Source of the DNA: Rhizobium sp. NXC24
Lineage (GTDB): Bacteria; Pseudomonadota; Alphaproteobacteria; Rhizobiales; Rhizobiaceae
DNA length: 64,000 bases
Assembly: GCF_002944315.1 (NCBI RefSeq)
Contig: NZ_CP024313.1
Location: forward strand, 1 to 64,000
Direction of reading: 5' to 3'
Part shown: positions 14,999 to 28,521 of the stretch, piece by piece
Layout: every line of letters begins with the position of its first letter
How positions within the stretch are numbered: position 1 is the stretch's first letter
Program-made: the position numbers and the translations under genes
Notes under the pieces: generated by a model
The model's input: the letters and a program-made list of their open reading frames with translations, nothing else
Told to the model about the DNA's origin: nothing
The model's database searches: none

Positions 14999-16132
14999 AT
15001 GGCTTACGATCTCGCAAAAACTGGCATTTTAAATTTGATGGGGCCCGCTTTCGACGCGGCCGTCGCATTGACGCGTCTCGACGAGCGCATTGCCCGCTCA
15101 CCGGTCGGCGCAGGCTGGATCGAACGCATGCACTTCGCCGATGCCTGCGCCTCGCTGTGGATTGACGGCGAACTCGTCCACCTCGAAGACCTCGTCCTGC
15201 ACGACGCCACGAAGGATGTTCGCACACCGACCCATGAGCTGACAATCGCCCGCGACGTCCTGCGCACCCGCCGACGCATCGCGGGCCAGTCGCCCGGCTG
15301 GGCGCTTTCCGCAGAGGGTATTCGGATATTGCGACAGACGTCGGACACGGGGGCGATCGGCGCCGAGGTGGGGGAGCCGACCGGCGTCATCCGGCCCGCC
15401 ATCGCTGTGCATGCGGAAGGGGAGGGGAAAAGCAGCGACGAAGCCGAAGGGCTTCCCGGCGTCGATTATGCCGCCATCGACGCGGTGCTCGCGCGATCCG
15501 AGGCTGTGATTGAGGAGGCAAAGCGACCCGGGCGCGTTACTGATACCCGCGAACGAGATCCTCTCGTCTATGATCTCGATTGGGACGAAGACGCGCGCCT
15601 CGACGAATGGCGCGGCGTGCTGCGCCAAGCCGATGAACTGCCGGTCGTGCTACAGGCCATCGTCGCTCTCGACGCCTGGAACGAGCTTTCCGTGCTGCAG
15701 CACGCCCCCTGGCTCGGCCGGCTATTATGTGCCTCAATGCTGCGTCAGGCCGGCATCACCACCGGCGTCCACCTCGCCGCCATCAATCTGGGCCTGAAAA
15801 CCATTCCGGTGGATCGGCGCAGGCATCGCGACCGGGAGACGCGACTGCTGGCCATCGCACAGGGATTGTTGGCGGCCGCCGAGATCGGCACGAAGGAACA
15901 TGACCGGCTGGCGCTGGCGCGAAAAATGTTCGAGCGGAAGCTCAAGGGGCGGCGAACGTCGTCAAAATTGCCGGAGCTGGTTGAGCTTGTGATAGCAAAG
16001 CCACTGGTTTCGGCCGGCATGGTGGGGAAAACGCTCGACGTCACGCCGCAGGCGGCGCGGCGGATCGTTTTGGAACTCGGCCTTAGGGAGATGACGGGGA
16101 GGGGGAGGTTTCGGGCGTGGGGCGTAATCTGA
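14999..16132 (+). CDS. RHE_PE00001 family plasmid protein (DUF1612 plus HTH)
   Basis: A 377-residue protein of a family found mainly on rhizobial and agrobacterial plasmids and usually named after Rhizobium etli RHE_PE00001. The opening MAYDLAKTG, the LARLDER-like and [20 protein letters not shown] segments and the C-terminal helix-turn-helix-like end ([37 protein letters not shown]) are characteristic. The function is unknown; the end resembles a DNA-binding region. No clear Shine-Dalgarno is seen before the ATG. Confidence 0.85.
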
Positions 16133-16338: not shown

Positions 16339-18771
16339 TTATGCCGCGACGGCGTCCACCAAGTATGTGAGAAGGTCGGGATCGACCGTAGTAGGTTCGC
16401 CGGCCGTCCTACGAAGTTCGACTGCAAGGAGCCTGTCTTTCTCGAACGAAGGACTGAGCTCTAGCTTGAGATAATCGAACAACGTCCGCTCATGAACGGC
16501 GATAACCACCTTCGTTCCATGAGCGCGCGAAATCGTTCGCAGCAGCGCTGCAAACTGCGCGACGTGAACCTCGTCCATATTCTGAACCGGATCATCAAGT
16601 ACAAGCCACGGAATTCTCGCGCCAACGGAGAAATGGAGTGCGAGAAACAGCGTTAATGCCGCCGTGTTCAGATTTCCGGCACTCAACATCGATCCTGGCG
16701 TTCCACCCTTCTTGCCATTCCGATGCACGGTTTCGAGTTTGGCGAAATCCTTGGAATCCGAGCCGGGTACCTTGAAGGCTGGAACAAATGGCTCGGTAGG
16801 GGCAAGACGTACAAATAGGTCTCGCCAGAGCGTGTTGAGCGACTCGTTGAAAACGCGTCTAACGATCTTGGTTCGAGCTTCCTGCGCAGTATCGGCGATG
16901 GTCTTTGCTTGCCCTTTCAACTTCTCCAGTTCGGCCACCGCCCCCACTAGGACCGCGCGCGTCTCTCGCGCCTTTTCAAGATTTGCCGCTGCTTGTTTTC
17001 GACGCTTGTCGATCGAGATAACTGTAAGAGCCGACTGTATGGCGGTCCCGCGGTGCGCCTGAAGAGAAGTTGCCTGTTCGACTTCAATCTCGGCCTGGGC
17101 TGTTAGTGCGGAGACTATAATGTGAAAGGGTTCTCGGGCGAGATCGCTTCGTGCCATTTCCCCGGCCATGCGAATGGCAGCATCTAAAAGCTCCGATGCC
17201 CCGCGATCCCTTTCGCGAAAACTTGCCAGCCGACCCTTCAGTTCAGCCTCGTCGGCAAGAAGGATAGTGCCGTTTATTGCCGGCTGCCACAGCCTGGCCA
17301 ATGTGACCTTGCCTTCAGCGAAGTCGGCCTGTGCGTTTATCCAGTCCAATCTTAGCTCGTCGGAAATCCGTTTGGCAGTCTCAGAAGCGAGTTCGCGCCG
17401 AAGCTGAGCAACGCGGCTTGTTGATGTGGTCTTTTCCGACGCGAGGGCCGTTAAGCGGGCTGCGTCGTCAGTTAGCTTCGCGATACTTTTTTGTACATGA
17501 AGAGACAGACGTTCATCCGGTGATACCTGTGAGAAATCCCGCCCACACACGGGGCAATCGTCGGTGTGAATATGAGGTAGAAGCGTTGCAAGGGCGCTCG
17601 CGAACTGACCGGCGTCCTGCGCAAGTCCTGAAATCTGGGAGTCGACGAGCAGCCCCCGCGCTTCCTCCTTCGCGATGTTGTCGCTGAGTTCGTATTCTTT
17701 CTTTTTTGCCGCTTCGTCGTTTTCCAGAAGCGTCTCAATACGGGCTAGTTCGTTTGCGATCCGCCTCTCAGCTTCCTCGGCGGCGGTCATCGGGTCGGTC
17801 GAAGACCAGGAGGGCAGGTCCGGAAAGTGGACGCGGAGAGAGACGATCAGTTCCTCCAATTCGGCGCCCGTCGTGGTTCGCCAGTCGTTTGCGGCCTCTC
17901 GCGCCGTTTGTTCGTTCGCTTCTACCTGGGCGCGCTCTTGAGATCCTGAATCGCTTGGTAGCTTCGACCAGGCACTTGTGAGCGACCGGAGATCGTTCAG
18001 ACGACGGGTTGCCTCCACGGCAACGCCTTCGGTACCCACGTTGCCAAGCAGGGCGGTTAGGTTTTCGAGGTCGAACCCATCTGAGGGTTCATCGGGTAAC
18101 AGTTCATTCAATGCGGCATGAACTTTTCCAAGCTCTTCGGTGCGAGTTTTATCCTGGGTCGCAAGTTCGGCCCTAAGTAGTGCAATTTCCTGGTCTGTTC
18201 GCTCGATCCGGCTCTCAAAAGCTCGATATTCCGGCACTAGATTTTTTGTCCGAGCTTTATGTCCCGCGTCGTGAAGACCATCGATTAGGGCATCGAGCTG
18301 GCTCAGGCCGAGCAGATCTTTCACAAATTGAGTCAGGGCACTCTCGCCATCCTCGACTTTCGATTTCTGATAGATGTCGAGAAGGCGGCCGAGCATCGAT
18401 TGCGCAAGATAGCACCGCTCGCTGAAAAATTTGCCATCGTCGCCGTCAAGGTACGGTGTGCCGGCGATGCGGCCGTTCTCGATCATAAAGCTGCCACGAT
18501 CATCCACGGGACCAAGAGGTCCTTCGATAACGACCTTGGCGTGTTGAGCCCCTTCGTGAACCACATGCCGCGCAAAATTCGCATCGTCTTCTCTCATCGA
18601 CCTGACGTTGCCAGTCAGAGCGAGCTCGAGGGCCGACAGGACACTAGTCTTTCCGGTTCCGTTGGGGCCATGGATCAGGATGATAGGTGCATCGAGTGGA
18701 ACTCGAATTGTCCCCGAGATGCTTCGGAAGTCAGTGATGGACAGGCGATGGACATCGTCGAGGCTGCTCAT
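16339..18771 (-). CDS. SMC/Rad50-like ATPase with zinc hook (LmuB-like, Lamassu defence)
   Basis: An 810-residue SMC-type ATPase. Walker A GPNGTGKTS is at 35-43, a long coiled coil follows, the CPVC zinc hook is at 406-409, almost exactly mid-chain, and the second coil leads to a signature-like LSAGNLNTAALTLFL and the Walker B LVLDDPVQ (D726, D727). This is the Rad50 layout. The gene overlaps the middle gene by ATGA and is last in a three-gene operon whose first gene is a SIR2 protein. The order effector, small protein, zinc-hook ATPase is that of Lamassu systems (LmuA, LmuC, LmuB), where the ATPase senses foreign DNA structures and releases the effector. Confidence 0.85.
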   Translation of the reverse strand: MSSLDDVHRLSITDFRSISGTIRVPLDAPIILIHGPNGTGKTSVLSALELALTGNVRSMREDDANFARHVVHEGAQHAKVVIEGPLGPVDDRGSFMIENGRIAGTPYLDGDDGKFFSERCYLAQSMLGRLLDIYQKSKVEDGESALTQFVKDLLGLSQLDALIDGLHDAGHKARTKNLVPEYRAFESRIERTDQEIALLRAELATQDKTRTEELGKVHAALNELLPDEPSDGFDLENLTALLGNVGTEGVAVEATRRLNDLRSLTSAWSKLPSDSGSQERAQVEANEQTAREAANDWRTTTGAELEELIVSLRVHFPDLPSWSSTDPMTAAEEAERRIANELARIETLLENDEAAKKKEYELSDNIAKEEARGLLVDSQISGLAQDAGQFASALATLLPHIHTDDCPVCGRDFSQVSPDERLSLHVQKSIAKLTDDAARLTALASEKTTSTSRVAQLRRELASETAKRISDELRLDWINAQADFAEGKVTLARLWQPAINGTILLADEAELKGRLASFRERDRGASELLDAAIRMAGEMARSDLAREPFHIIVSALTAQAEIEVEQATSLQAHRGTAIQSALTVISIDKRRKQAAANLEKARETRAVLVGAVAELEKLKGQAKTIADTAQEARTKIVRRVFNESLNTLWRDLFVRLAPTEPFVPAFKVPGSDSKDFAKLETVHRNGKKGGTPGSMLSAGNLNTAALTLFLALHFSVGARIPWLVLDDPVQNMDEVHVAQFAALLRTISRAHGTKVVIAVHERTLFDYLKLELSPSFEKDRLLAVELRRTAGEPTTVDPDLLTYLVDAVAA

Positions 18772-19376
18772 TGGTCACCCTCATCGGTTTCAAGTTTCTT
18801 TTCGGCGGTGTTGAAAGGTGCCGTTAGTTGCCGTTTCAACTCAAATTTGACAGCGGCAGCTCCGCGTGGAGACGCTTCAACGACCGATTTTCTTAACTGG
18901 GGATCTATAGACGCGGGTAGGAGCTGGATCATTTCCCCGAGAGGATCGGCGGCTATCCCTGTCTGCGGAGCTATTGGCAATGGCAAAAGTACGGAAAGCC
19001 AATCACGCAGCAGCTCGTCGTCCTTCGTACCAGTCGGAGTGCCAACTGGTAGAACGCGACAGACTTTCGAAATTGACTCGAGGGCGCTTTCGGCTGGCCG
19101 CGGACCCGTGAGGATTGCGGTAACCGGTCGTCGGGAACCAACCACATCCAGAGCCCGCCCGAGTCCGCCAATTTTCTGACGTGTGCGCTGAATATCCTCA
19201 GCAATAGTATCGATGACGATTACGAGGTCTGGATTCTTGTCCTGCCCGATCAGAACAGCGGAGAACTCAAAAGGGACGTTTCCGATCTTTAGAGGAGCGG
19301 GCACGCGCCGAAATGCTTTCGAGCCTTCGAGGATCGCGACAATCTGCTCAACGGGTGCCAGTGTAGTGGGTGTCAT
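18768..19376 (-). CDS. Small middle protein of Lamassu-like operon (LmuC-like)
   Basis: A 202-residue protein, start taken at the ATG that overlaps the SIR2 stop (ATGA); the end overlaps the ATPase start by another ATGA. The core (PFEFSAVLIGQDKNPDLVIVIDT, then RTRQKIGGLGRALDVV) alternates strands and helices in a way that resembles a degenerate nuclease-like fold, but no certain catalytic set is visible. Size and position match the middle component LmuC of Lamassu or the middle component of ABC-three-component conflict systems. It probably bridges the ATPase and the effector. Confidence 0.7.
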   Translation of the reverse strand: MTPTTLAPVEQIVAILEGSKAFRRVPAPLKIGNVPFEFSAVLIGQDKNPDLVIVIDTIAEDIQRTRQKIGGLGRALDVVGSRRPVTAILTGPRPAESALESISKVCRVLPVGTPTGTKDDELLRDWLSVLLPLPIAPQTGIAADPLGEMIQLLPASIDPQLRKSVVEASPRGAAAVKFELKRQLTAPFNTAEKKLETDEGDQ

Positions 19377-21127
19377 AGCGTTGCCTCTTCCTTGAGCCTC
19401 GCCAATATCTCGTCGGTACTCGTGGCATTGACTATAAGCTCTTTGAAGCTGAACTCGCGATAGCTGCTTTCCGCATCGCCCCGCCCAAACCGTGACGACG
19501 GGCTCGTTTGTCGGCGAGCAATGCGGGCGGAACAAACGGCGACGATTGTGTCGCTATCGGTTTCATTTATGACGCCTTCGCCAATAAGCTTCGACAGCGT
19601 TTCATTGTTCGAGACTACGAACATTTTCTGCTGCTTTCCAGCCGCGCCGGAAATTGAGAAGCTACCCATGTTCGCATCGCCGGTGACCGGTGTGATTTGC
19701 CATCCGTCCACTTCCGTCGCTCGACCAGCGATCCCGAGAAACACTCCCAGTTCCGGCATGTTCGACATCTGGACATAAGGATCGTTGGCCATTTGCCCAA
19801 TAGGCAGCACCCCAACCGGGCCGTAGATGCCTTTGGCTAGGCCGCCGATCTCCCCGCGGAAAATCGAAAGGTTTCGTGTGATCCCGGCGACCAGCGCGTT
19901 CATGAACGCTCGCTTGTCGTCGCTGGTGTCACCCGCCTTGGATGCGACCCGATCTCTCGCGCCGATGACTCCCTCTATGATCTTCGCCCGCTCCCCCGCG
20001 GCCAATTGTGATGCATCGACGAGCTCGATCAACTTAGCAAACTTCTGACCCAGCACGCTCAGAACCAATGCCGTCAGAAGTGGTTTTCCGTAAGCAGGGA
20101 TTTTTGCCGCTTTTTCGATTTCGAACTGGCGATCGTCATAATCGTCCTGATAGACGCTCTTGAGCATAGTCCCCTGCTCGGCGCCGAGCTCATCGCCCGC
20201 AAATACATAAGCGGGTGGATGCGAAGGCCAGCCGCGCTTCAGCATCGCGCGGTCGACCGAAAATATGTCCTTGATGTTGGAATCCTGGGCCGAAAGGCCA
20301 ATCATCAGAGTACGGTGCGTGACGCTCAGTCCTTCCAGCTGATTTTTCATGAGCGCGAATTTTGGATCGTTCGGCCAATCCGTAATCTGCTGGTCCCGAC
20401 CTACGATGTACTCGCGATACTGCGCTTCCTGGCGCTTAGCCTGGATGGCGCATCCATGAAATTTATGAAGTAGGGCTCGCCCGCCTGCGCCCGGGATATC
20501 TTCCGCTCTCACCAGCACGGCAACCAACGTTTCATTGCCATCGGACAGGGTCGCCACCGCTTTTTCTACCAAGCCGTCCCAGTTGGCCGATGCGACTTTC
20601 GGAAACACACCCTCCAGAACCAATACTGCAACCGCTGTATGCTCACAGTCCGGCTCGAGGTTATCGTCAGCGTAAGTTCCTCGGACATCGACGATGTCCC
20701 ACACCAAATGGTCCGATGGATGTCCCTGTATTCGTATGTCGAGTAGTAGTGCGTATTTGCCGACGAGGCGCTCAACAATGATGTCTATATTTGCCCAAGT
20801 TGTCGGATCTGCCTCCTGATCAACCGCAGCTTTTTCGCCAGGGGTCAAAGCGAGGCCTAGCGCTTTGTCCAGTGCGCGTTTGTATGTTCCGTCGCCGGTT
20901 TCACCTCTTGCATTAGCTGACAGGTAATCCAGCACGCGTCTCGCGACCACGCGCAGGTCAGCCACTCTTTCCCTCGAAATTCCCGACCCCAACCAGAGCG
21001 CGTATTCGGCTTTCGCAACGCCAACCGCGACTTCCAGAAACTCTTCGTCGAGAAGTTTCAGGGTCTCCAACACGGAGATATTTATCGCCGTAATCTTCTT
21101 TGGAATTTCCAAGATTTGTGCCCCCAT
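19373..21127 (-). CDS. SIR2-domain effector (LmuA-like, Lamassu-Sir2)
   Basis: A 584-residue protein if started at 21127; an in-frame ATG at about 21199 would add 24 residues and has a weak AAGGCGGG site, so the start is uncertain. YALWLGSGIS at about 43-51 is the SIR2 nucleotide-binding motif (GAGxS form). Anti-phage SIR2 proteins usually destroy NAD+ and stop infected cells. The remaining 500 residues, including YVFAGDELGAEQG, are probably the part that meets the ATPase. It begins a three-gene operon with two 4-base overlaps. The Lamassu-Sir2 assignment rests on gene order and domains. Confidence 0.72.
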   Translation of the reverse strand: MGAQILEIPKKITAINISVLETLKLLDEEFLEVAVGVAKAEYALWLGSGISRERVADLRVVARRVLDYLSANARGETGDGTYKRALDKALGLALTPGEKAAVDQEADPTTWANIDIIVERLVGKYALLLDIRIQGHPSDHLVWDIVDVRGTYADDNLEPDCEHTAVAVLVLEGVFPKVASANWDGLVEKAVATLSDGNETLVAVLVRAEDIPGAGGRALLHKFHGCAIQAKRQEAQYREYIVGRDQQITDWPNDPKFALMKNQLEGLSVTHRTLMIGLSAQDSNIKDIFSVDRAMLKRGWPSHPPAYVFAGDELGAEQGTMLKSVYQDDYDDRQFEIEKAAKIPAYGKPLLTALVLSVLGQKFAKLIELVDASQLAAGERAKIIEGVIGARDRVASKAGDTSDDKRAFMNALVAGITRNLSIFRGEIGGLAKGIYGPVGVLPIGQMANDPYVQMSNMPELGVFLGIAGRATEVDGWQITPVTGDANMGSFSISGAAGKQQKMFVVSNNETLSKLIGEGVINETDSDTIVAVCSARIARRQTSPSSRFGRGDAESSYREFSFKELIVNATSTDEILARLKEEATL

Positions 21128-21260
21128 GCGAAGCACTATAAGCTCAATTCGTGCTAAGATTGCAAGCAATTGATGTTGGCGCGGGCGCATTTCACGTGCC
21201 CCGCCTTTCGGTTCGTTGCACGCTTTCCGCAGTATTTGTGGGTGGCTGAGGAACGGGTGA

Positions 21261-22679
21261 ATGCGCAGGAACATTACGGTTGACCCGCTGGCCTATGCCG
21301 ATCCGGTGCAAAATCCAGAAATCACAGAGATCCTTGATCTTGCTAGCGGCGAAGTCCTCGACGCGGTTCAGTGGATTTCCGGCCGGCGCTACGATCATTT
21401 GATCGCGGACCGCGTCTCGATCCGCGAGAACTTGTCCAGCGTTCCGCGCTTCAGCTGCGCTCTCTGCCCGACCCCTGTGTATCTCGTGTCATCGCCCGAA
21501 AAGCGCTTCTTCTTCCGCCATAAGAGCGAAGACGGATCGTGCCCAGCGAAGACCCGATCAGCCTTGTCGCGGGAAGAAATCCAAGCCCTGAAATACCATG
21601 GACAACGCGAGAGCGAAGCGCACAAAGCCGCCAAATCTCGCATTATCCGGAGCCTTGCTGCGGATCCTACCAACAGCGACATCTACACGGAACGGCAATG
21701 GCGTTCAAGCCTGAAGCCCGGGAGCCGTCGGCAGCCGGATGTGCAGGCGCAGACCGTTTTCGGCCGCGTCGCTTTCGAGGTGCAGCTTTCAACCACGTTT
21801 CTCGATGTCGTGGCCGAGCGCCGTTCCTTTTATCGTCAGGAGGGCGCTTTGCTGATCTGGATGATGGCGGGCTTCAATCCGGAAGATCGTCGTCTGACTA
21901 CTGACGACCTGCTATTCTCAAATAACTCGAACATATTGGTCGTCGATGAGGAGACGGCGCAGCTGTCGGAGCGAGAAGGCTTGTTCCACGTCCGTTGTCA
22001 CTATCGCGTACCGGAAGTGAATGCTGGCAAGCTGAAGGACCGGTGGCGGGATGAGATCGTCGCCTTTAGAGATCTGATAGTAGATTTCGAAAAGCAAACC
22101 GCTTGGGCATTTGATTATGCCGGCCAAGCCAACTTGCTGCTGCGGCAGCGGGAAGCGACCCGGCTGGGAGGCGAGGACGACCTGCGCCAGCGGATTTGTT
22201 CGTTTTGGCTCGCTCGAAATCAAAAGACGCCCGAGACGGTGTCGCAGGTTGAGACGTGGCAAAACCTTATTGGGGAGCTTTCTGCAAGCGGAGTGCCCGC
22301 CCCAATCGGCGATCGCTATGACCGCGCGATTACCGGCCTCATGAATGGGGTTTTGAGCGCGCGTGAGAAGACACCGGTGGGATGGGATTTCAAACATCTT
22401 ATCCAGGTCGTTCACCGCATCTGCGATGGGTACCCAGAACACGCGCTGACAATGGGCGTCGCGCTTCGGGAATATGAATGCGAAGACTTGATCAAAGCCC
22501 AGGATAAAAAGGGAAAATGGGCGAAACGATCGCACGCTATGCGACAAGCGATTCTGAATGGTGATGAGCGCTTTCTGCCCGATTCCGGGACGTTGCCATT
22601 TCTGAAATTCATGTTTCCGGCAATCGGCGCGCGAGTCGAAAGGTTTCTTGCCTCGGGTTTGGGGAGGTCGCAGTTCTAA
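21261..22679 (+). CDS. CoiA/DUF6035-like predicted nuclease
   Basis: A 472-residue protein divergent from the SIR2 operon. Its N-terminal third has paired cysteines (CALCPT and SCPAK) suited to zinc binding around a RFFFRHK segment, and then RRQPDVQAQTVFGRVAFEVQLSTTF, which has the D-x(n)-E-x-Q pattern of PD-(D/E)xK nucleases, as in CoiA-like competence proteins and DUF6035. The C-terminal half has no motif I recognise. It shares the defence island and may be an independent nuclease or an accessory of a neighbouring system. Confidence 0.7.
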   Translation: MRRNITVDPLAYADPVQNPEITEILDLASGEVLDAVQWISGRRYDHLIADRVSIRENLSSVPRFSCALCPTPVYLVSSPEKRFFFRHKSEDGSCPAKTRSALSREEIQALKYHGQRESEAHKAAKSRIIRSLAADPTNSDIYTERQWRSSLKPGSRRQPDVQAQTVFGRVAFEVQLSTTFLDVVAERRSFYRQEGALLIWMMAGFNPEDRRLTTDDLLFSNNSNILVVDEETAQLSEREGLFHVRCHYRVPEVNAGKLKDRWRDEIVAFRDLIVDFEKQTAWAFDYAGQANLLLRQREATRLGGEDDLRQRICSFWLARNQKTPETVSQVETWQNLIGELSASGVPAPIGDRYDRAITGLMNGVLSAREKTPVGWDFKHLIQVVHRICDGYPEHALTMGVALREYECEDLIKAQDKKGKWAKRSHAMRQAILNGDERFLPDSGTLPFLKFMFPAIGARVERFLASGLGRSQF

Positions 22680-22831: not shown

Positions 22832-23971
22832 TCACCGAAGGGCTCTCGAGGAGAGTCTTACCAGTTGCGCCACCTTTCGCTCGAGCCAGGTCCACAAACC
22901 GCTCCAAGCAATTAGCCAAAGCGCAGCCAGTACTACGCACCAGACGGCGACGGAGCCGCCAAAGCCCCAATATTTTTCGCCCCAATTGCCGAGCACGCCA
23001 CCGATTGCTCCCAGCAAAACTACGCCGATCATGTAGAAAAGTAGGCCAGGCGTGCTGGCCTGGAAGCTGGCAAACGCTGTGAAGTCTCCAATCGGATCGT
23101 CGGGACTGCCTTCTTTCCAATGATAAATCATCAAGCGAGAGAGAAGGCGCTCTTCTTCGGCTGCTTGTTTAGTGGAGATAGCCCTTCCGCGCAGGTATGA
23201 CGCCCAGAGTTTGGCTTCCAGTCGCCGCACCTTGCGCAATGGCGCATGCTGGGTGATTAGGGAGTGTCCGAGTTCCCGGATCAGAAAGTAGTGTACGCGG
23301 GTGATTTTGAAGGGGTTGGCCTGCGCCTTCTTCCTGATCGATGGTGGGTAGCTACGTTGTTCGTTGAGGCGGAGTTCAGTCAGTTCCAGTCGCTGTGTCG
23401 AACTGACAAAGATGCTACCTTGGCCGTCGATCTCCTGTGTAAAAAGGCTCTTGGAAGCGCCGATTAGATGCAGGCGCAGACGAATGTATTGATCTCCTTT
23501 GCCAGCAGATCGCAGGCGTTGGCAAATTTTCTCCGTAAAGACCAGAGTGCAGCCTGGCCCCTTGATACCGTCTTCCACGGGGGCTACTTTGACATCCGTA
23601 CCGACTGCCACCTTGTGGACCGTAACGAAAGGCTCACCATTCGATATGGTGGTGTATTTGAGGTCTGTCTCTTCTCCAATCTCCACGACCGTGTTGAAGA
23701 CGGCGTCGAGCGTTTGAGCGAAGGTCATGACCTCGCTTAGGTCATTGACCTGAGCGATCCCGATAGGTACGGGCAAATAAAAATAGATGCGCTTCAGCAG
23801 ATGAACGTCAGACAGGCGCAATCCCATGTCCAGGAAGTTCGTCTTGGATGGGGTGTCTCGCCACAGGTTGAAGTGGATTTCAAGGCGAGGCTGCTCCGGC
23901 GCGCCATCCTGCGGTGGCTGAGTGCCATGTACCTGCTCAGGCTCATACCAAATCGCCAGGGTGCCATTCAT
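22832..23971 (-). CDS. Unassigned protein with two C-terminal membrane helices
   Basis: A 379-residue protein. The first 300 residues look soluble, with a beta-rich N-terminus. The last 75 hold two strongly hydrophobic segments (LLFYMIGVVLLGAIGGVLG and VAVWCVVLAALWLIAWSGL) followed by a basic tail. It starts 17 bp after the ASCH gene and is last in the operon GNAT-ASCH, ASCH, membrane protein. A C-terminal helical hairpin on a soluble body is a common form of membrane-damaging effectors in abortive infection. That role is inference; no family was recognised. Confidence 0.6.
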   Translation of the reverse strand: MNGTLAIWYEPEQVHGTQPPQDGAPEQPRLEIHFNLWRDTPSKTNFLDMGLRLSDVHLLKRIYFYLPVPIGIAQVNDLSEVMTFAQTLDAVFNTVVEIGEETDLKYTTISNGEPFVTVHKVAVGTDVKVAPVEDGIKGPGCTLVFTEKICQRLRSAGKGDQYIRLRLHLIGASKSLFTQEIDGQGSIFVSSTQRLELTELRLNEQRSYPPSIRKKAQANPFKITRVHYFLIRELGHSLITQHAPLRKVRRLEAKLWASYLRGRAISTKQAAEEERLLSRLMIYHWKEGSPDDPIGDFTAFASFQASTPGLLFYMIGVVLLGAIGGVLGNWGEKYWGFGGSVAVWCVVLAALWLIAWSGLWTWLERKVAQLVRLSSRALR

Positions 23972-23988
23972 CTTGTTTAAAGACCTTC

Positions 23989-24408
23989 TCAGACCGCCAG
24001 GCTGAGCTGACCAGTCGAAGGTCGGCCGAGCTCGTCGCTCACATACATGTAGGACTGGGGTGGGGTGAAGTTCTCGATTACGTCGGAAGGGTCGAGCGGG
24101 CTGTCGTAACGGCGGACATCTCCGACCGCGAGGGCGAAACTCCGTGTCCGCCCCGAGAAGTATTCGTCGAAGAAGTGCTTCGATATTCCGGAGAAGTCAG
24201 AGGTCAGCGCCCAAAGCTCGTCGGGCGTCTCGCAGAGGATTTCCTCGACGTCAAACTCGCCGATGATTTGTCCGATGGGCCGCGTCACGTAAACAACTAC
24301 CGTCTTCACGTCTTTCGAACGGTAGATGCTTTTACGAAATTCGAAGCGCTTGGTGCCTTCAAAGATCTTCTCCGCAAATTCCGGCTTAATTGACAATAAG
24401 ACTTTCAT
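23989..24408 (-). CDS. ASCH/PUA-like domain protein
   Basis: A 139-residue protein that starts at the ATG of MKVLLSIKPEFAEKIFEGTKRFEFRK. This opening is the ASCH signature (substrate-binding lysines and arginines in GTKRFEFRK), as in RNA-binding ASCH and YqfB-type proteins. PUA-like folds of this group bind RNA or modified nucleotides. The gene overlaps the upstream GNAT-ASCH gene by 23 bp and is followed 17 bp later by the membrane protein. It could sense a modified base or nucleotide. Confidence 0.78.
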   Translation of the reverse strand: MKVLLSIKPEFAEKIFEGTKRFEFRKSIYRSKDVKTVVVYVTRPIGQIIGEFDVEEILCETPDELWALTSDFSGISKHFFDEYFSGRTRSFALAVGDVRRYDSPLDPSDVIENFTPPQSYMYVSDELGRPSTGQLSLAV

Positions 24409-25441
24409 CGACCTCACCCAGTTGAAGAATGGTAGCAAATTGGTCATCGGTCAGAGGCCTAAGGTCCCACCGAGGAAACTCGCTGACGCCTACAACATTC
24501 ATCAAAGCACCGCGAGTGGGACGCTTCGCGAAAGCGGCGTTGTATGTCATTTTGGCGACATAAAGGGGCTTGCCGTCCGCATAGCGATCCAGGAGCTCTT
24601 TCTCGCTGAAAACGCTATGGTCCTTCGCAAAGGCTACGAACTCGTTGCCGTCCTTAAAGTCCCTGCGGGAGTAGGTCTCTTCGATTACGCAAACGGACGT
24701 TGCGACAGACCTGTAGAAGGCCTTCCCTGAAATATCGGTCGTTCTATAGAAAACGACGAGATCGCCTTTCTTCATCCGCGTGAGGATCAAGCCCGCGATG
24801 TATACCTTGTGGATGGTGTTCGTGTGAGGGACGTCTTCCTCTGAGTTGGGATCTTCCGTTTTCAGGATGGAATCAGGCAGAAGGGCAGTGTGGTATGCCG
24901 GCTTTATCGCCAACAGCCATTTAGCTTTCCCTTCGGTCTGCATGAAGGGATAGTCCTTGACGATGTCTCCGACCGTGGTTTCGAGCGACCGCAGCAGCAC
25001 GAGCTCCTCCCCGTTCGGGGTCGTCTTTATGCCTTTTTGCTCGAAGCCATAGCGTTGGAACAGCTTTATCAGCGAGGTGTGCGTATCGAATACGGTAACG
25101 TAGACTTCAGCAACGTCTTCGAGGATAGCATGGTCGAAAATGCGCTTGATGATCCGCTCGCCGAGCTTAGTGCCCTTGGCGTTCACCTTGAGTGTGCCAA
25201 CCTTGAGCCTTTTCTTGGCAGGTAGGGGAGGCTGCACGTCAGTGATCTTGCCGGTCTCGACCTTGATGTACAGAAAGCCCCGAATTCCGTTCCCATTTTC
25301 CTCGTCGATAACGTAAACCGGCTCCTGTGCCTTCTTCTTAAACCAATTGGAAAACTCACTGTATTGAGCTTTCAGGCTATCAAAGAATTTGTCGTTAAGG
25401 TCGACGTCTTTAAACTTAGTTGGGCGTAACGTTTGGCCCAT
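24386..25441 (-). CDS. GNAT acetyltransferase fused to an ASCH/EVE-like domain
   Basis: A 351-residue two-domain protein. Residues 1-155 are GNAT-like: LKVNAKGTKLGERIIKRIFDHA is an acetyl-CoA loop and helix, and HTSLIKLFQRYGFEQKGI is the closing GNAT strand-helix. Residues 165-345 are PUA-like (KWLLAIKPAYHTALLPDSILK, KKGDLVVFYRTTD, FRSV-type strands), in the ASCH/EVE superfamily. It opens a tight operon with a stand-alone ASCH protein and a two-helix membrane protein, divergent from the Argonaute pair. An acylating toxin or modifier controlled by nucleotide sensing is possible. Substrate unknown. Confidence 0.75.
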   Translation of the reverse strand: MGQTLRPTKFKDVDLNDKFFDSLKAQYSEFSNWFKKKAQEPVYVIDEENGNGIRGFLYIKVETGKITDVQPPLPAKKRLKVGTLKVNAKGTKLGERIIKRIFDHAILEDVAEVYVTVFDTHTSLIKLFQRYGFEQKGIKTTPNGEELVLLRSLETTVGDIVKDYPFMQTEGKAKWLLAIKPAYHTALLPDSILKTEDPNSEEDVPHTNTIHKVYIAGLILTRMKKGDLVVFYRTTDISGKAFYRSVATSVCVIEETYSRRDFKDGNEFVAFAKDHSVFSEKELLDRYADGKPLYVAKMTYNAAFAKRPTRGALMNVVGVSEFPRWDLRPLTDDQFATILQLGEVDESLIVN

Positions 25442-25718: not shown

Positions 25719-27041
25719 GTGAAAAAGCTGCATCGGAATCAGCTAGCGGGAGAGGAAGGCGTCCACCGGTTCTCCGCTCGTGTTCTGAATGTCGGCATTG
25801 CTTTTCATCCGACCGGGGCTTTGGATGCCGGTATCGACGGCTTTCTCGAACTGCGCGATGCCGAGACCGGTGAGGTTAGGGCGCAGTACATTGCCGCTCA
25901 GCTCAAGACAGTCGATCAACTCGCGGAGGACAACGGCGAGACTTTTGCCTACCGGCCAGAGCAGCGAGACTTGGACTACTGGCTCAATTCGAACGTCCCG
26001 GTCATCTTGGTCGTTATTCATCGAACGAGCGACCTCATCTGCTGGAAGTCTGTCCAGAGCTACTTCCAAGTTCCGGAAAACACGCAATCCCGAAAGATCG
26101 TCTTCGATCGGGAGAAGGATTCGCTGACGGAAACGACTGCACCTCGCTTGGCTGCACTTGTTGCTGAGTTCGCCCGTCCAGGAATGGTGGTGCCGTCCCT
26201 TCGTTCTGTAGAGCTGCTCGAAACTAACCTCCTGAAGGCAAGCTTTCCGTTTAGGATCCAACTTGCATCGACCGACCTTGACATGACGGATGTCAGGAAG
26301 GCCCTCCTAATTAAAGAGGAGCGACCGCCCATCGACTGGATCGTCCACAACGGACACATTGTTTCCTTTCGCGACCTGGGAGGTCCCCTTTTCGAACGGG
26401 CCTGTGATCAAGGAAGCGTGGACATCGTTGAGACGGAGGAATGGTTCAGTTCCGACGATGAGGTTACGAAACGGCTTTTCGTCCAATTGCTTAACCGATG
26501 CCTTGGCGAGCGCTTGCGGGAGCGGCTAGTCTTTGACCGACCAAAAAAATACTACTTTTTCAAAGGTCATCTGAAGAAGCGCGATAAGGTCGTTTACACC
26601 TTCCGAGATCGGCACGGCGACGGCAAGCGGGCCGTAGTAACCCAGCATGGAAGGAAGTTGGATGGCACAGGCGCCGCATACGTCCGGCACGCAGCGTTCT
26701 TTCCCCGGTTTTTAGAGATCGATGGAGAATGGTACCTCGCAGTCGATCCGACCTATCACTTCACGCGCGACGGCTTGATCGAATACGAATATGGCGCCGA
26801 ACGACTCACAACGATCAAGATGTTCGAGACGAACTCAAATGTTCGCGGCCATCTTCGCGTGTGGCGGGCCCTACTGACAGAGCAGGGTGATCTGCTCCAC
26901 TACGAGTACCCTTATCTCAGCTTCGACCCCGTGGAGCCTCTTTCCCACGAGTTTGGGGTGCCCGACGAGCTCTGGGGCAGCCGCGAAGATTCTGATCTGA
27001 TAAAGGCAAGGAAGGCGGGCCAGATTGAGTTCGATCTTTAA
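25719..27041 (+). CDS. DUF4365 nuclease-APAZ protein (SPARDA effector, DREN-APAZ-like)
   Basis: A 440-residue protein with a GTG start. Residues 1-150 are the DUF4365 nuclease: ALDAGIDGFLEL (D36, D40) and QLKT (Q61, K63) form the D...Q-x-K active-site pattern, followed by DYWLNSNVPVILVVI. The remaining 290 residues fit the APAZ region that clamps a short Argonaute. The downstream gene, overlapping by 17 bp, encodes a short Argonaute. Together they match the SPARDA layout, in which guide-directed DNA recognition unleashes indiscriminate DNase and RNase activity and kills the infected or plasmid-invaded cell. Confidence 0.85.
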   Translation: MKKLHRNQLAGEEGVHRFSARVLNVGIAFHPTGALDAGIDGFLELRDAETGEVRAQYIAAQLKTVDQLAEDNGETFAYRPEQRDLDYWLNSNVPVILVVIHRTSDLICWKSVQSYFQVPENTQSRKIVFDREKDSLTETTAPRLAALVAEFARPGMVVPSLRSVELLETNLLKASFPFRIQLASTDLDMTDVRKALLIKEERPPIDWIVHNGHIVSFRDLGGPLFERACDQGSVDIVETEEWFSSDDEVTKRLFVQLLNRCLGERLRERLVFDRPKKYYFFKGHLKKRDKVVYTFRDRHGDGKRAVVTQHGRKLDGTGAAYVRHAAFFPRFLEIDGEWYLAVDPTYHFTRDGLIEYEYGAERLTTIKMFETNSNVRGHLRVWRALLTEQGDLLHYEYPYLSFDPVEPLSHEFGVPDELWGSREDSDLIKARKAGQIEFDL

Positions 27042-28521
27042 ACTGCAGCACATCGGCGAGCCGCTGCTGGAGTTCGGCAGTGAAGGGCGGCACATGGACG
27101 TGCGCTTTGGTCTGATCGACCATGGGCCAGTTGATTTCAGCCTGGATCGGACGAAGACAGTAAAGGTCGGAGTGATCGGGAGCTCCCGCACCGTCGATGG
27201 TCTGCGTGAATGGTTCCGGCGCTGCGAAAGCATAGTCCCGGCCAAACAAAGCCGCCAGCCAAACTTATTCCCGGCTTTTCCTGGCAGCGGCATCGGAGGC
27301 CCCTTCCGTTGCTGGTTCGAAATTGATGATCAGCACCAGCGCATTCTGGCCACTTCCAGTATCTCGGACGTGGTGAGGGAAATTGCCGATGAGACCGCGA
27401 TCAAGAAGGCGGTGGACCTTTTCATAGAGGAAATCCGCGACTTATCGCAGCTGGATCGACCACCGCACGTCATCGTTTGCGCCTTGCCTATAGAAATCAT
27501 CGAGCGCGTGAAAAACCTTAGAATTGCGGAGGAAGAGGCTCTTGGAAGCGGAGGTACTGGCGACAGCGAAGATGCGGACGACCCGGAAAACGGTCTTTAC
27601 GAGGACTTTCGGGGTGCCCTGAAGGCAGCATCGATGCCGATGAAGATTCCGATTCAGCTTATCTGGCCATCGACATACGACAACAGCGCGATCATCAAGC
27701 GAAAGCTCGCTCGCCTGTCCGATCGCCGGGTCCAGGATGAAGCCACGAGAGCGTGGAACTTCTTCTGCGCCCTCTACTACAAGGCCGGTGGCACCCCTTG
27801 GCGAATGATTAGAGATCGTAAGAGCTACGACACGACCTATCTCGGCATAAGCTTTTTCCAGGACCTTTCGCGCGGTTCGTTGCGGACGAGCTCCGCACAG
27901 CTGTTTGATGAACGCGGAGAGGGCCTCATTCTTAAGGGAGGCACTGCTCTTGAGGACAAGCACGACCGTAACCCGTATCTCAGCCGGGATGACGCCCACT
28001 CCCTGTTGAAAAGATCGTTGGGGGCTTACAAGCGCGAGCACGCCAACTACCCCGCGCGATTGGTGATCCATAAGAGCTCGAGATTCCACGATGATGAGCT
28101 TGAAGGACTGAATGCGGCCCTGGATGAAGCTGGGGTGACCATGGCAGACTTCATTTGGATGCCGCGACGGTCGCCAATAAAGCTGGTAAGGCAGGGGGAC
28201 TACCCGCCATTGCGGGGAACCGCGATGCGCGTCGATCAAGATTCCTCGCTTCTTTATACGCGGGGTAGCGTGGATTTCTTCGCCACGTATCCCGGAATGT
28301 ACGTGCCGAACCCTTTAATACTGCGCTGCCAACGCCGAGATCGGACCGAATGGGATGCCCTTCTCCATGAGACAATGGCTCTCACGAAGATGAACTGGAA
28401 CAATACCCAGTTCGATGGAGCGCTGCCGATAACCATGCGGGCTGCCCGTCAGGTGGGAGAAATCCTGAAGTACATTCCGGATGGAGTAGAAGCCGATCCG
28501 CGCTATCGGTTCTATATGTGA
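27025..28521 (+). CDS. Short prokaryotic Argonaute (MID-PIWI)
   Basis: A 498-residue short Argonaute with a TTG start (AGGAAGGCGGG upstream), overlapping the nuclease-APAZ gene by 17 bp. PIWI landmarks are readable: YYKAGGTPWRM, YLGISFFQD, ARLVIHKSSRFHDDEL and the C-terminal LTKMNWNNTQFDG...ITMRAARQVGEIL. In LGISFF the first catalytic aspartate of active PIWI domains is absent, as in all short Argonautes, so it should bind guide and target without slicing. It would load a small guide and signal to the DUF4365 nuclease. Confidence 0.9.
   Translation: MSSIFKLQHIGEPLLEFGSEGRHMDVRFGLIDHGPVDFSLDRTKTVKVGVIGSSRTVDGLREWFRRCESIVPAKQSRQPNLFPAFPGSGIGGPFRCWFEIDDQHQRILATSSISDVVREIADETAIKKAVDLFIEEIRDLSQLDRPPHVIVCALPIEIIERVKNLRIAEEEALGSGGTGDSEDADDPENGLYEDFRGALKAASMPMKIPIQLIWPSTYDNSAIIKRKLARLSDRRVQDEATRAWNFFCALYYKAGGTPWRMIRDRKSYDTTYLGISFFQDLSRGSLRTSSAQLFDERGEGLILKGGTALEDKHDRNPYLSRDDAHSLLKRSLGAYKREHANYPARLVIHKSSRFHDDELEGLNAALDEAGVTMADFIWMPRRSPIKLVRQGDYPPLRGTAMRVDQDSSLLYTRGSVDFFATYPGMYVPNPLILRCQRRDRTEWDALLHETMALTKMNWNNTQFDGALPITMRAARQVGEILKYIPDGVEADPRYRFYM

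Follow-up and report, generated by a model that had tools for sequence, protein, structure and literature searches.

What do three adjacent minus-strand genes, lying between positions 22832 and 25441 of a 64,000-nucleotide stretch of Rhizobium sp. NXC24 (contig NZ_CP024313.1, positions 1 to 64,000; that whole stretch is called the window here), do together, and do they belong to a defence system without a name? In the direction of transcription they encode a GNAT acetyltransferase fused to an EVE domain (GNAT-EVE), a stand-alone ASCH protein and a membrane protein, and an earlier, sequence-only reading had stated that no named system has this set. That statement holds for the third gene only. 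A wholly undescribed system is rejected for GNAT-EVE and ASCH by the PADLOC models, by GenBank record PV340567 and by Bell et al. 2020, which place the two in candidate PDC-M11 and in a published family of predicted toxin-antitoxin systems; the pair is already known and is no discovery, and the novelty lies in the third gene. The best overall explanation, to which we give a probability of roughly 0.45, is a three-gene form of the GNAT-EVE/ASCH family with an extra, conserved, membrane-anchored partner, whose mechanism we infer.

The GNAT-EVE/ASCH pair

The GNAT-EVE gene (24386..25441, minus strand; 351 residues) is of the PDC-M11A family, and the ASCH gene (23989..24408, minus strand; 139 residues counted from the start MKVLLSIKP) is of the PDC-M11B family. 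The two overlap by 23 base pairs with the start at 24408, or by 62 base pairs if the upstream ATG at 24447 is used. In relatives, overlapping genes were found in 91 of 92 same-strand GNAT-EVE/ASCH pairs, a count that is not dereplicated and takes the first in-frame start codon, which can lengthen the overlap. A gap of 17 base pairs (23972..23988, minus strand) separates the ASCH stop from the start of the membrane protein gene (22832..23971, minus strand; 379 residues, of a family without a name), a spacing compatible with one transcript for these two genes; a promoter scan found none, against 2.1 on average in shuffled sequences. The open reading frames, Pfam and a structure model thus bear out the three genes, the fusion of a GNAT to a PUA-like domain, the 23-base-pair overlap and the 17-base-pair gap of the sequence-only reading.

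The pair is almost certainly a member of the GNAT-EVE/ASCH toxin-antitoxin-like defence family (PDC-M11; GevT/GevA). PDC-M11 is phage defence candidate M11 of PADLOC-DB 2.0.0, and membership was judged by model matches rather than by PADLOC's system rule: GNAT-EVE matches the PDC-M11A model PDLC04419 over residues 4-351 (E = 7.8e-132) and ASCH matches the PDC-M11B model PDLC04425 over residues 14-139 of its longer reading (E = 4.4e-49). Pfam places EVE at residues 219-340 with 23.0 bits, exactly at the cut-off, and Acetyltransf_1 below it (17.0 versus 20.7 bits); in the structure model GNAT folds cover about residues 1-154 and an ASCH/PUA fold residues 172-343. The ASCH protein exceeds the cut-off of Pfam ASCH, with 26.1 bits. 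In addition, GenBank PV340567, the lambdoid Escherichia phage PhiR47_2, gives the names “GevT toxin” and “GevA antitoxin” to such a pair, which comes straight after cI. In the parts of Bell et al. available here, (PIN)-GNAT-EVE fusions with ASCH, often accompanied by an AAA_17 protein, are predicted toxin-antitoxin systems, GNAT-EVE is common in prophages of β- and γ-proteobacteria, none of these modules had been experimentally characterised as of 2020, and Iyer et al. are credited with having noticed such proteins earlier (Bell, Wolf and Koonin 2020, PMC7641849). Among the literature matches listed, no paper beyond Bell et al. 2020 treats a PDC-M11, VakA, GevT or GevAT system, and the available parts of PMC10853773 and PMC12839542 contain no description of this gene set.

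GNAT-EVE is widespread. At least 1104 database proteins resemble it at E<=0.001 (4072 candidates scored), a scan of viral contigs confirmed at least 87 places, from which 79 distinct loci were retained, and a near relative occurs in 35 of 5426 E. coli genomes. Its carriers are temperate phages, viral contigs, prophages and plasmids; the family search also gave a match in the Bacillus subtilis control genome. In phage SopEPhi (L149, 6685-8233) the pair is followed by phosphoribosyltransferase-like and, by eye, DprA-like genes, possibly an accessory pair. In L117, L121-L129, L131-L134, L136 and L140 GNAT-EVE appears as two open reading frames (about 156-173 and 193-198 residues) with a convergent kinase, possibly a natural division into a GNAT gene and an EVE gene.

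GNAT toxins that act on aminoacyl-tRNA, of the AtaT/TacT kind, carry the acetyl-CoA motif R/Q-x-x-G-x-G/A and have a DNA-binding antitoxin gene (ribbon-helix-helix or helix-turn-helix). In the window the motif reads K-G-T-K-L-G, with its last Gly (G94) present in 103 of 103 aligned rows, and the partner is the 139-residue ASCH protein, in which Pfam detects no helix-turn-helix; a helix-turn-helix-ASCH fusion is seen in a PIN-type relative (L003).

The closest solved relative of the ASCH family is ZmASCH (profile E = 5e-34), which the available part of its description presents as a weak single-stranded-RNA nuclease of Zymomonas mobilis (PMC5615036). Tyr40 (119 of 120 rows, with one gap) and Ser119 (120 of 120) of the ASCH family correspond to ZmASCH Tyr47 and Ser128, and the equivalent of Lys53 is Gly in 96 of 120 rows. 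Since two of three functional ZmASCH residues are invariant, nucleic-acid binding by ASCH is plausible. An alternative role, in which ASCH would undo the work of the GNAT as an N4-acetylcytidine amidohydrolase, is disfavoured: enzymes of the YqfB type are described, in the part of the source available, as using a Thr24 nucleophile with Lys21 and Arg26 (PMC6972931), and in ASCH Lys20 and Arg25 are present while the nucleophile position is Glu23 in 119 of 120 rows (one gap), in a register set by the K-x-x-[T/E]-x-R spacing rather than by alignment to YqfB.

The membrane protein and the company it keeps

The third protein has a β-rich, conserved body (residues 1-305) and hydrophobic segments at 309-327 and 341-359 at its C terminus. 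The two C-terminal membrane helices proposed earlier persist as two hydrophobic segments by hydropathy; AlphaFold draws residues 310-357 as a single helix, so that a two-helix hairpin is a hydropathy reading only. Pfam, NCBIfam, PADLOC (E<=0.01) and PHROGs return nothing for the window protein, which leaves it outside the recognised families of these libraries; the family profile has no match among PDB sequences, five divergent relatives have no Pfam match over the cut-off, and a comparison with predicted viral structures gave nothing at E<=0.001. A database search found at least 49 relatives (7997 candidates scored). Among the nearest folds an oligosaccharyltransferase chain ranks first, followed by M1 aminopeptidases among others. 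M1 aminopeptidases have a zinc catalytic domain with an HExxH motif; an aminopeptidase is rejected here, as the likeness covers part of the fold and HExxH is missing. In 37 sequences, 22 positions are at least 90% conserved, all of them in the Arg-rich soluble body (among them H33, D77, R164, R166, R201, R206, R249 and E252) and none in the C-terminal membrane part; mean pairwise identity is 0.32 in the body versus 0.22 in the membrane part. Each of the 38 homologues carries one hydrophobic segment or more in its final 40%, and at least 17 of them have a single one by this measure.

Does this protein belong with the pair? Recurrence of the three genes elsewhere had been set beforehand as the test, and they do recur. 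Taking nearby as within 4 kilobases, and counting loci retrieved by the membrane protein alone separately from those retrieved by GNAT-EVE alone, GNAT-EVE or a related second GNAT lies nearby in 38 of 38 membrane-protein loci and in 31 of 31 places retrieved by the membrane protein alone. The 31 places are the sum of six scans (12 + 3 + 2 + 1 + 3 + 10) and are not dereplicated, and the contigs of the last 10 were equated with viral-scan loci by contig name; four places with partial GNAT matches (E ~1e-4) were left out of the counts. Across 397 genomes of the host's order, the membrane protein is strong (E ~1e-22 or better) in four and GNAT-EVE, PIN-fused forms included, occurs in 12 (E<1e-30). 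Three of the four have GNAT-EVE within 2 kilobases and the fourth has the second GNAT, a kinase and ASCH; a further profile match, in G133 (E = 6e-4), was dismissed as transporter-like by eye, with E = 2.6 against profile A3. Among 337 genomes of the class, one (G617) has GNAT-EVE beside a very divergent membrane protein (E = 2e-5 and 7e-10) and another (G564) has the membrane protein with the second GNAT, kinase and ASCH. These genome and locus counts reject chance adjacency of the three genes.

Moreover, distances among membrane proteins correlate with those of their neighbours: Mantel r is 0.90 with the second GNAT (17 loci), 0.75 with GNAT-EVE (25), 0.66 with the kinase (20) and 0.57 with ASCH (28), and for each of the four partners 0 of 2000 permutations reached the observed value. 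We regard it as highly probable that the membrane protein is a true component of the system, and the third gene looks like an overlooked, widely conserved membrane partner of this predicted toxin-antitoxin or defence family.

Seen from the side of the pair, GNAT-EVE retrieves 94 loci, 17 of which have the membrane protein within 4 kilobases (16 of 82 with a short form and one of 12 with a long form); after dereplication at 85% identity the figure is 11 of 63 (10 of 51 short and one of 12 long). Long forms are open reading frames of more than 440 residues, taken as the PIN type, of which L039 (654 residues) is probably misassigned through a wrong start; the PIN domain itself is assigned from a sub-cut-off Pfam match in one protein and from Bell et al. 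2020. Among a wider set of 77 dereplicated loci, some of them fetched by the membrane protein, 71 contain ASCH, 36 the kinase, 20 the membrane protein (19 of these in its BLAST cluster) and 11 the second GNAT. Further clusters that recur in this set, in 3 to 14 loci, look by eye mostly like phage genes.

The gene orders vary. In the 12 loci of one genome-collection scan with the membrane protein, GNAT-EVE stands directly upstream of it in L003-L007; L008 has the order GNAT-EVE, ASCH, membrane protein; L012 and L014 have the membrane protein, second GNAT, ASCH, a PIN-type GNAT-EVE and the kinase; L013 combines the membrane protein with the second GNAT, ASCH and kinase, and L009-L011 with the second GNAT and kinase. 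In L003-L007, GNAT-EVE and the membrane protein also lie beside a divergent pair of helix-turn-helix-ASCH and PIN-GNAT-EVE, with an HNH gene between them in L003. The full set of five genes (membrane protein, second GNAT, adenylate-kinase-like enzyme, ASCH and GNAT-EVE) occurs on 11 distinct contigs of Alphaproteobacteria, Pseudomonas and Paenibacillus, including plasmids of Pseudomonas sp. CIP-10 and Paenibacillus cellulosilyticus. The second GNAT is related to GNAT-EVE, and its PADLOC match is weak and to PDC-M11A itself. Viral contigs searched with it gave four loci: two with the membrane protein and two, nearly the same and 28% identical, without it. The kinase is assigned as an adenylate kinase from 1ki9 (E = 2e-16), the best-ranked row being a designed particle; the PADLOC label “VakA” for it was set aside as weak (E = 1.5e-3 and 1.6e-5). 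In the window's own genome a search made without a positive control found no second GNAT and, for the kinase, only weak P-loop matches.

A compact version lies in E. coli MB20 (L142, 4912-7426), in a prophage that is P2-like by its annotated genes, in the order CI, membrane protein (354 residues), GNAT-EVE, ASCH and integrase; seven of the 35 E. coli genomes cover at least 80% of the MB20-prophage query. From rhizobia to Paenibacillus and a prophage of E. coli the membrane partner is conserved, which gives a way into the question of how such systems detect infection. Temperate phages and bacterial genomes commonly carry GNAT-EVE/ASCH genes, and the three-gene prophage version makes this question testable in laboratory strains of E. 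coli.

Proposed mechanism and its rivals

In the mechanism that we propose, the toxic effector would be the GNAT-EVE protein, which would acetylate an amino group borne by RNA, most likely one such as that of aminoacyl-tRNA, with the EVE domain guiding it to modified RNA, and ASCH would silence it by binding GNAT-EVE or its RNA. That GNAT-EVE is a toxin and ASCH its antitoxin we consider somewhat more probable than not. The membrane protein, with its body in the cytosol, would dock the GNAT at the inner membrane, and the GNAT would be released or triggered when infection disturbs the membrane, or when an Arg-rich pocket in the body loses or gains an anionic ligand, with growth arrest as the outcome. 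In related loci the GNAT-EVE/ASCH pair is accompanied by, or gives way to, the second GNAT and the adenylate-kinase-like enzyme. We favour a tethered partner or sensor over a pore: the conserved positions all lie in the body and at least 17 of 38 homologues show a single segment, a pattern that suits the former better or at least equally well. That the membrane protein serves the GNAT as tether or sensor and is not the killer is held tentatively, at a little under even odds.

Several observations weigh against this proposal. The membrane protein is not essential to the pair, since 77 of the 94 GNAT-EVE loci lack it, and its main partner may be another protein, since L009-L011, L013, L036 and L057 combine it with the second GNAT and kinase while lacking GNAT-EVE. 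Catalysis is not assured, since the usual middle Gly of the GNAT motif is Lys in the window, and ASCH could itself be an effector, judging from its solved relative being a weak ribonuclease. The distance correlation may partly stem from shared host lineages, and the locus counts come from profiles iterated on these same loci; with the starting profile, prophage-type membrane proteins reach E = 3e-36 to 9e-52, and L058 no better than 7e-10. Searching the phage records with the E. coli type of membrane protein gave no match. Of the other 28 E. coli genomes two were inspected, and in both a 260-residue protein with an RxxxxH motif occupies the slot ahead of GNAT-EVE (L146, 4219-5001; L147, 4219-5001), so that the place of the membrane protein could be one for effectors or one that takes up unrelated cargo. 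This protein or a relative is present in 10 loci, these two included, always with RNKVIH; it has no Pfam match over the cut-off, and its motif is one that we take to be typical of HEPN ribonuclease effectors.

The slot occupied by the presumed HEPN protein in two other E. coli prophages, the position of the MB20 genes between CI and integrase, and the presence of at least one hydrophobic segment in all 38 homologues would all suit the account of the sequence-only reading, taken as an abortive infection: nucleotides or modified bases are detected by the ASCH and EVE domains, the GNAT passes on the signal or modifies a target, and the membrane protein kills by permeabilising the inner membrane. 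Against such a pore, the body is better conserved than the membrane part, which has no position at 90% or above, at least 17 homologues have a single segment, and most GNAT-EVE/ASCH pairs have no membrane protein; we think this account unlikely. Somewhat less credible is a selfish toxin-antitoxin (addiction) cassette whose role is to keep prophages, plasmids and islands in place; the membrane protein would then be an anchor that silences the toxin, and phage defence an incidental effect. The mobile carriers of GNAT-EVE and the toxin/antitoxin names in GenBank agree with it, but some chromosomal copies adjoin type I or type II restriction-modification genes, the window copy adjoins LmuB-like and Argonaute operons, and five genes are many for a simple cassette of this kind.

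The high correlation with the second GNAT (r = 0.90, the top value), the six loci where the membrane protein accompanies the second GNAT and kinase in the absence of GNAT-EVE, and the failure to find a second GNAT in the window's genome (again in the search without a positive control) point in another direction, namely that the membrane protein pairs mainly with the second GNAT and kinase in a separate acetylation or nucleotide system, and that the window's three-gene set is a mosaic in which GNAT-EVE took the second GNAT's place, there and in rhizobial relatives. The five-gene loci and the enterobacterial-type prophage loci, however, keep the membrane protein with GNAT-EVE/ASCH, and the two GNATs are themselves related; a mosaic seems improbable. 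A bolder extension of the docking proposal, which we find doubtful, would make the known pair just the part so far noticed of a modular, undescribed defence system of five genes, in which a membrane-docked acetylation switch, instead of a pore or nuclease, detects infection and stops growth. Its parts would be a sensor that is rich in Arg and tethered to the membrane, two acetyltransferases related to each other, an adenylate kinase of archaeal type and an ASCH protein as reader, and the window would hold a reduced, three-gene form.

Surroundings and kinship with known systems

The three-gene set was said to lie between a Lamassu-like operon and a nuclease-Argonaute operon. Both operons are present, and on one side a further gene intervenes. 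A Sir2 protein and an SMC-type, LmuB-like ATPase form an operon at 16339-21274 (PADLOC, LmuB-like E = 1e-33), the Sir2 protein itself having no PADLOC match; a plus-strand gene at 21261-22679, with Pfam domains DUF6035, DUF7830, DUF7829 and a CoiA-nuclease-like domain, separates it from the three-gene set. On the other side, at 25719-28521, lie a DUF4365 nuclease and an Argonaute (PADLOC Aga_REase-PNTD1-PNTD2 and pAgo_I). Window positions 16339-21197 are 96.4% identical to a stretch of the Agrobacterium fabrum conjugative plasmid NZ_CP132056.1; the match ends before the genes on the right, the side compared, so that the Sir2/LmuB-like operon may be an independent cassette. Beyond it, at 14999-16132, is a DUF1612/HTH_13 protein, and genes like it, by eye, lie close to the membrane protein gene in L004 and L006, perhaps as a marker of one mobile-element family.

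Defence-type surroundings, which the sequence-only reading had noted, recur at some related loci: L036 adjoins a type I restriction-modification system, L011 a restriction pair of the MvaI/BcnI type, L013 ThiF/multiubiquitin genes and L057 a DUF4011/helicase/nuclease gene. Ten neighbouring proteins were picked by eye for PADLOC, of which four matched at E<=1e-8. Multiubiquitin and ThiF genes lie near the membrane protein and second GNAT in L013 (7308-9797) and near GNAT-EVE/ASCH in L150 (9214-11333).

Among known systems, those of Bell et al. 2020 have the same GNAT-EVE fusion, with an ASCH partner that in the window, judged by overlap, would share its operon. Their family and its relatives here feature a frequent AAA_17 protein, helix-turn-helix-ASCH variants and a prophage location; in the main text, so far as available, “transmembrane” and “second GNAT” have no occurrences and “membrane” has five, on other things (PMC7641849). 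PDC-M11 shares the A (GNAT-EVE) and B (ASCH) proteins, encoded in the window by overlapping genes, but has no counterpart to the window's membrane protein (no PADLOC match, E<=0.01). ZmASCH shares with the ASCH family the equivalents of Tyr47 and Ser128, its Lys53 being mostly Gly there, and its PDB entry is named a helix-turn-helix domain protein, whereas the window ASCH has no helix-turn-helix match. The GNAT-EVE of GevT/GevA in PhiR47_2 is 45% identical to that of the window and likewise has an overlapping ASCH gene, but no membrane gene of this family lies in the stretch read. The RexA/RexB exclusion system of phage lambda also joins a repressor-adjacent gene to a membrane partner, a likeness of position alone, as GevT/GevA lie right after cI.

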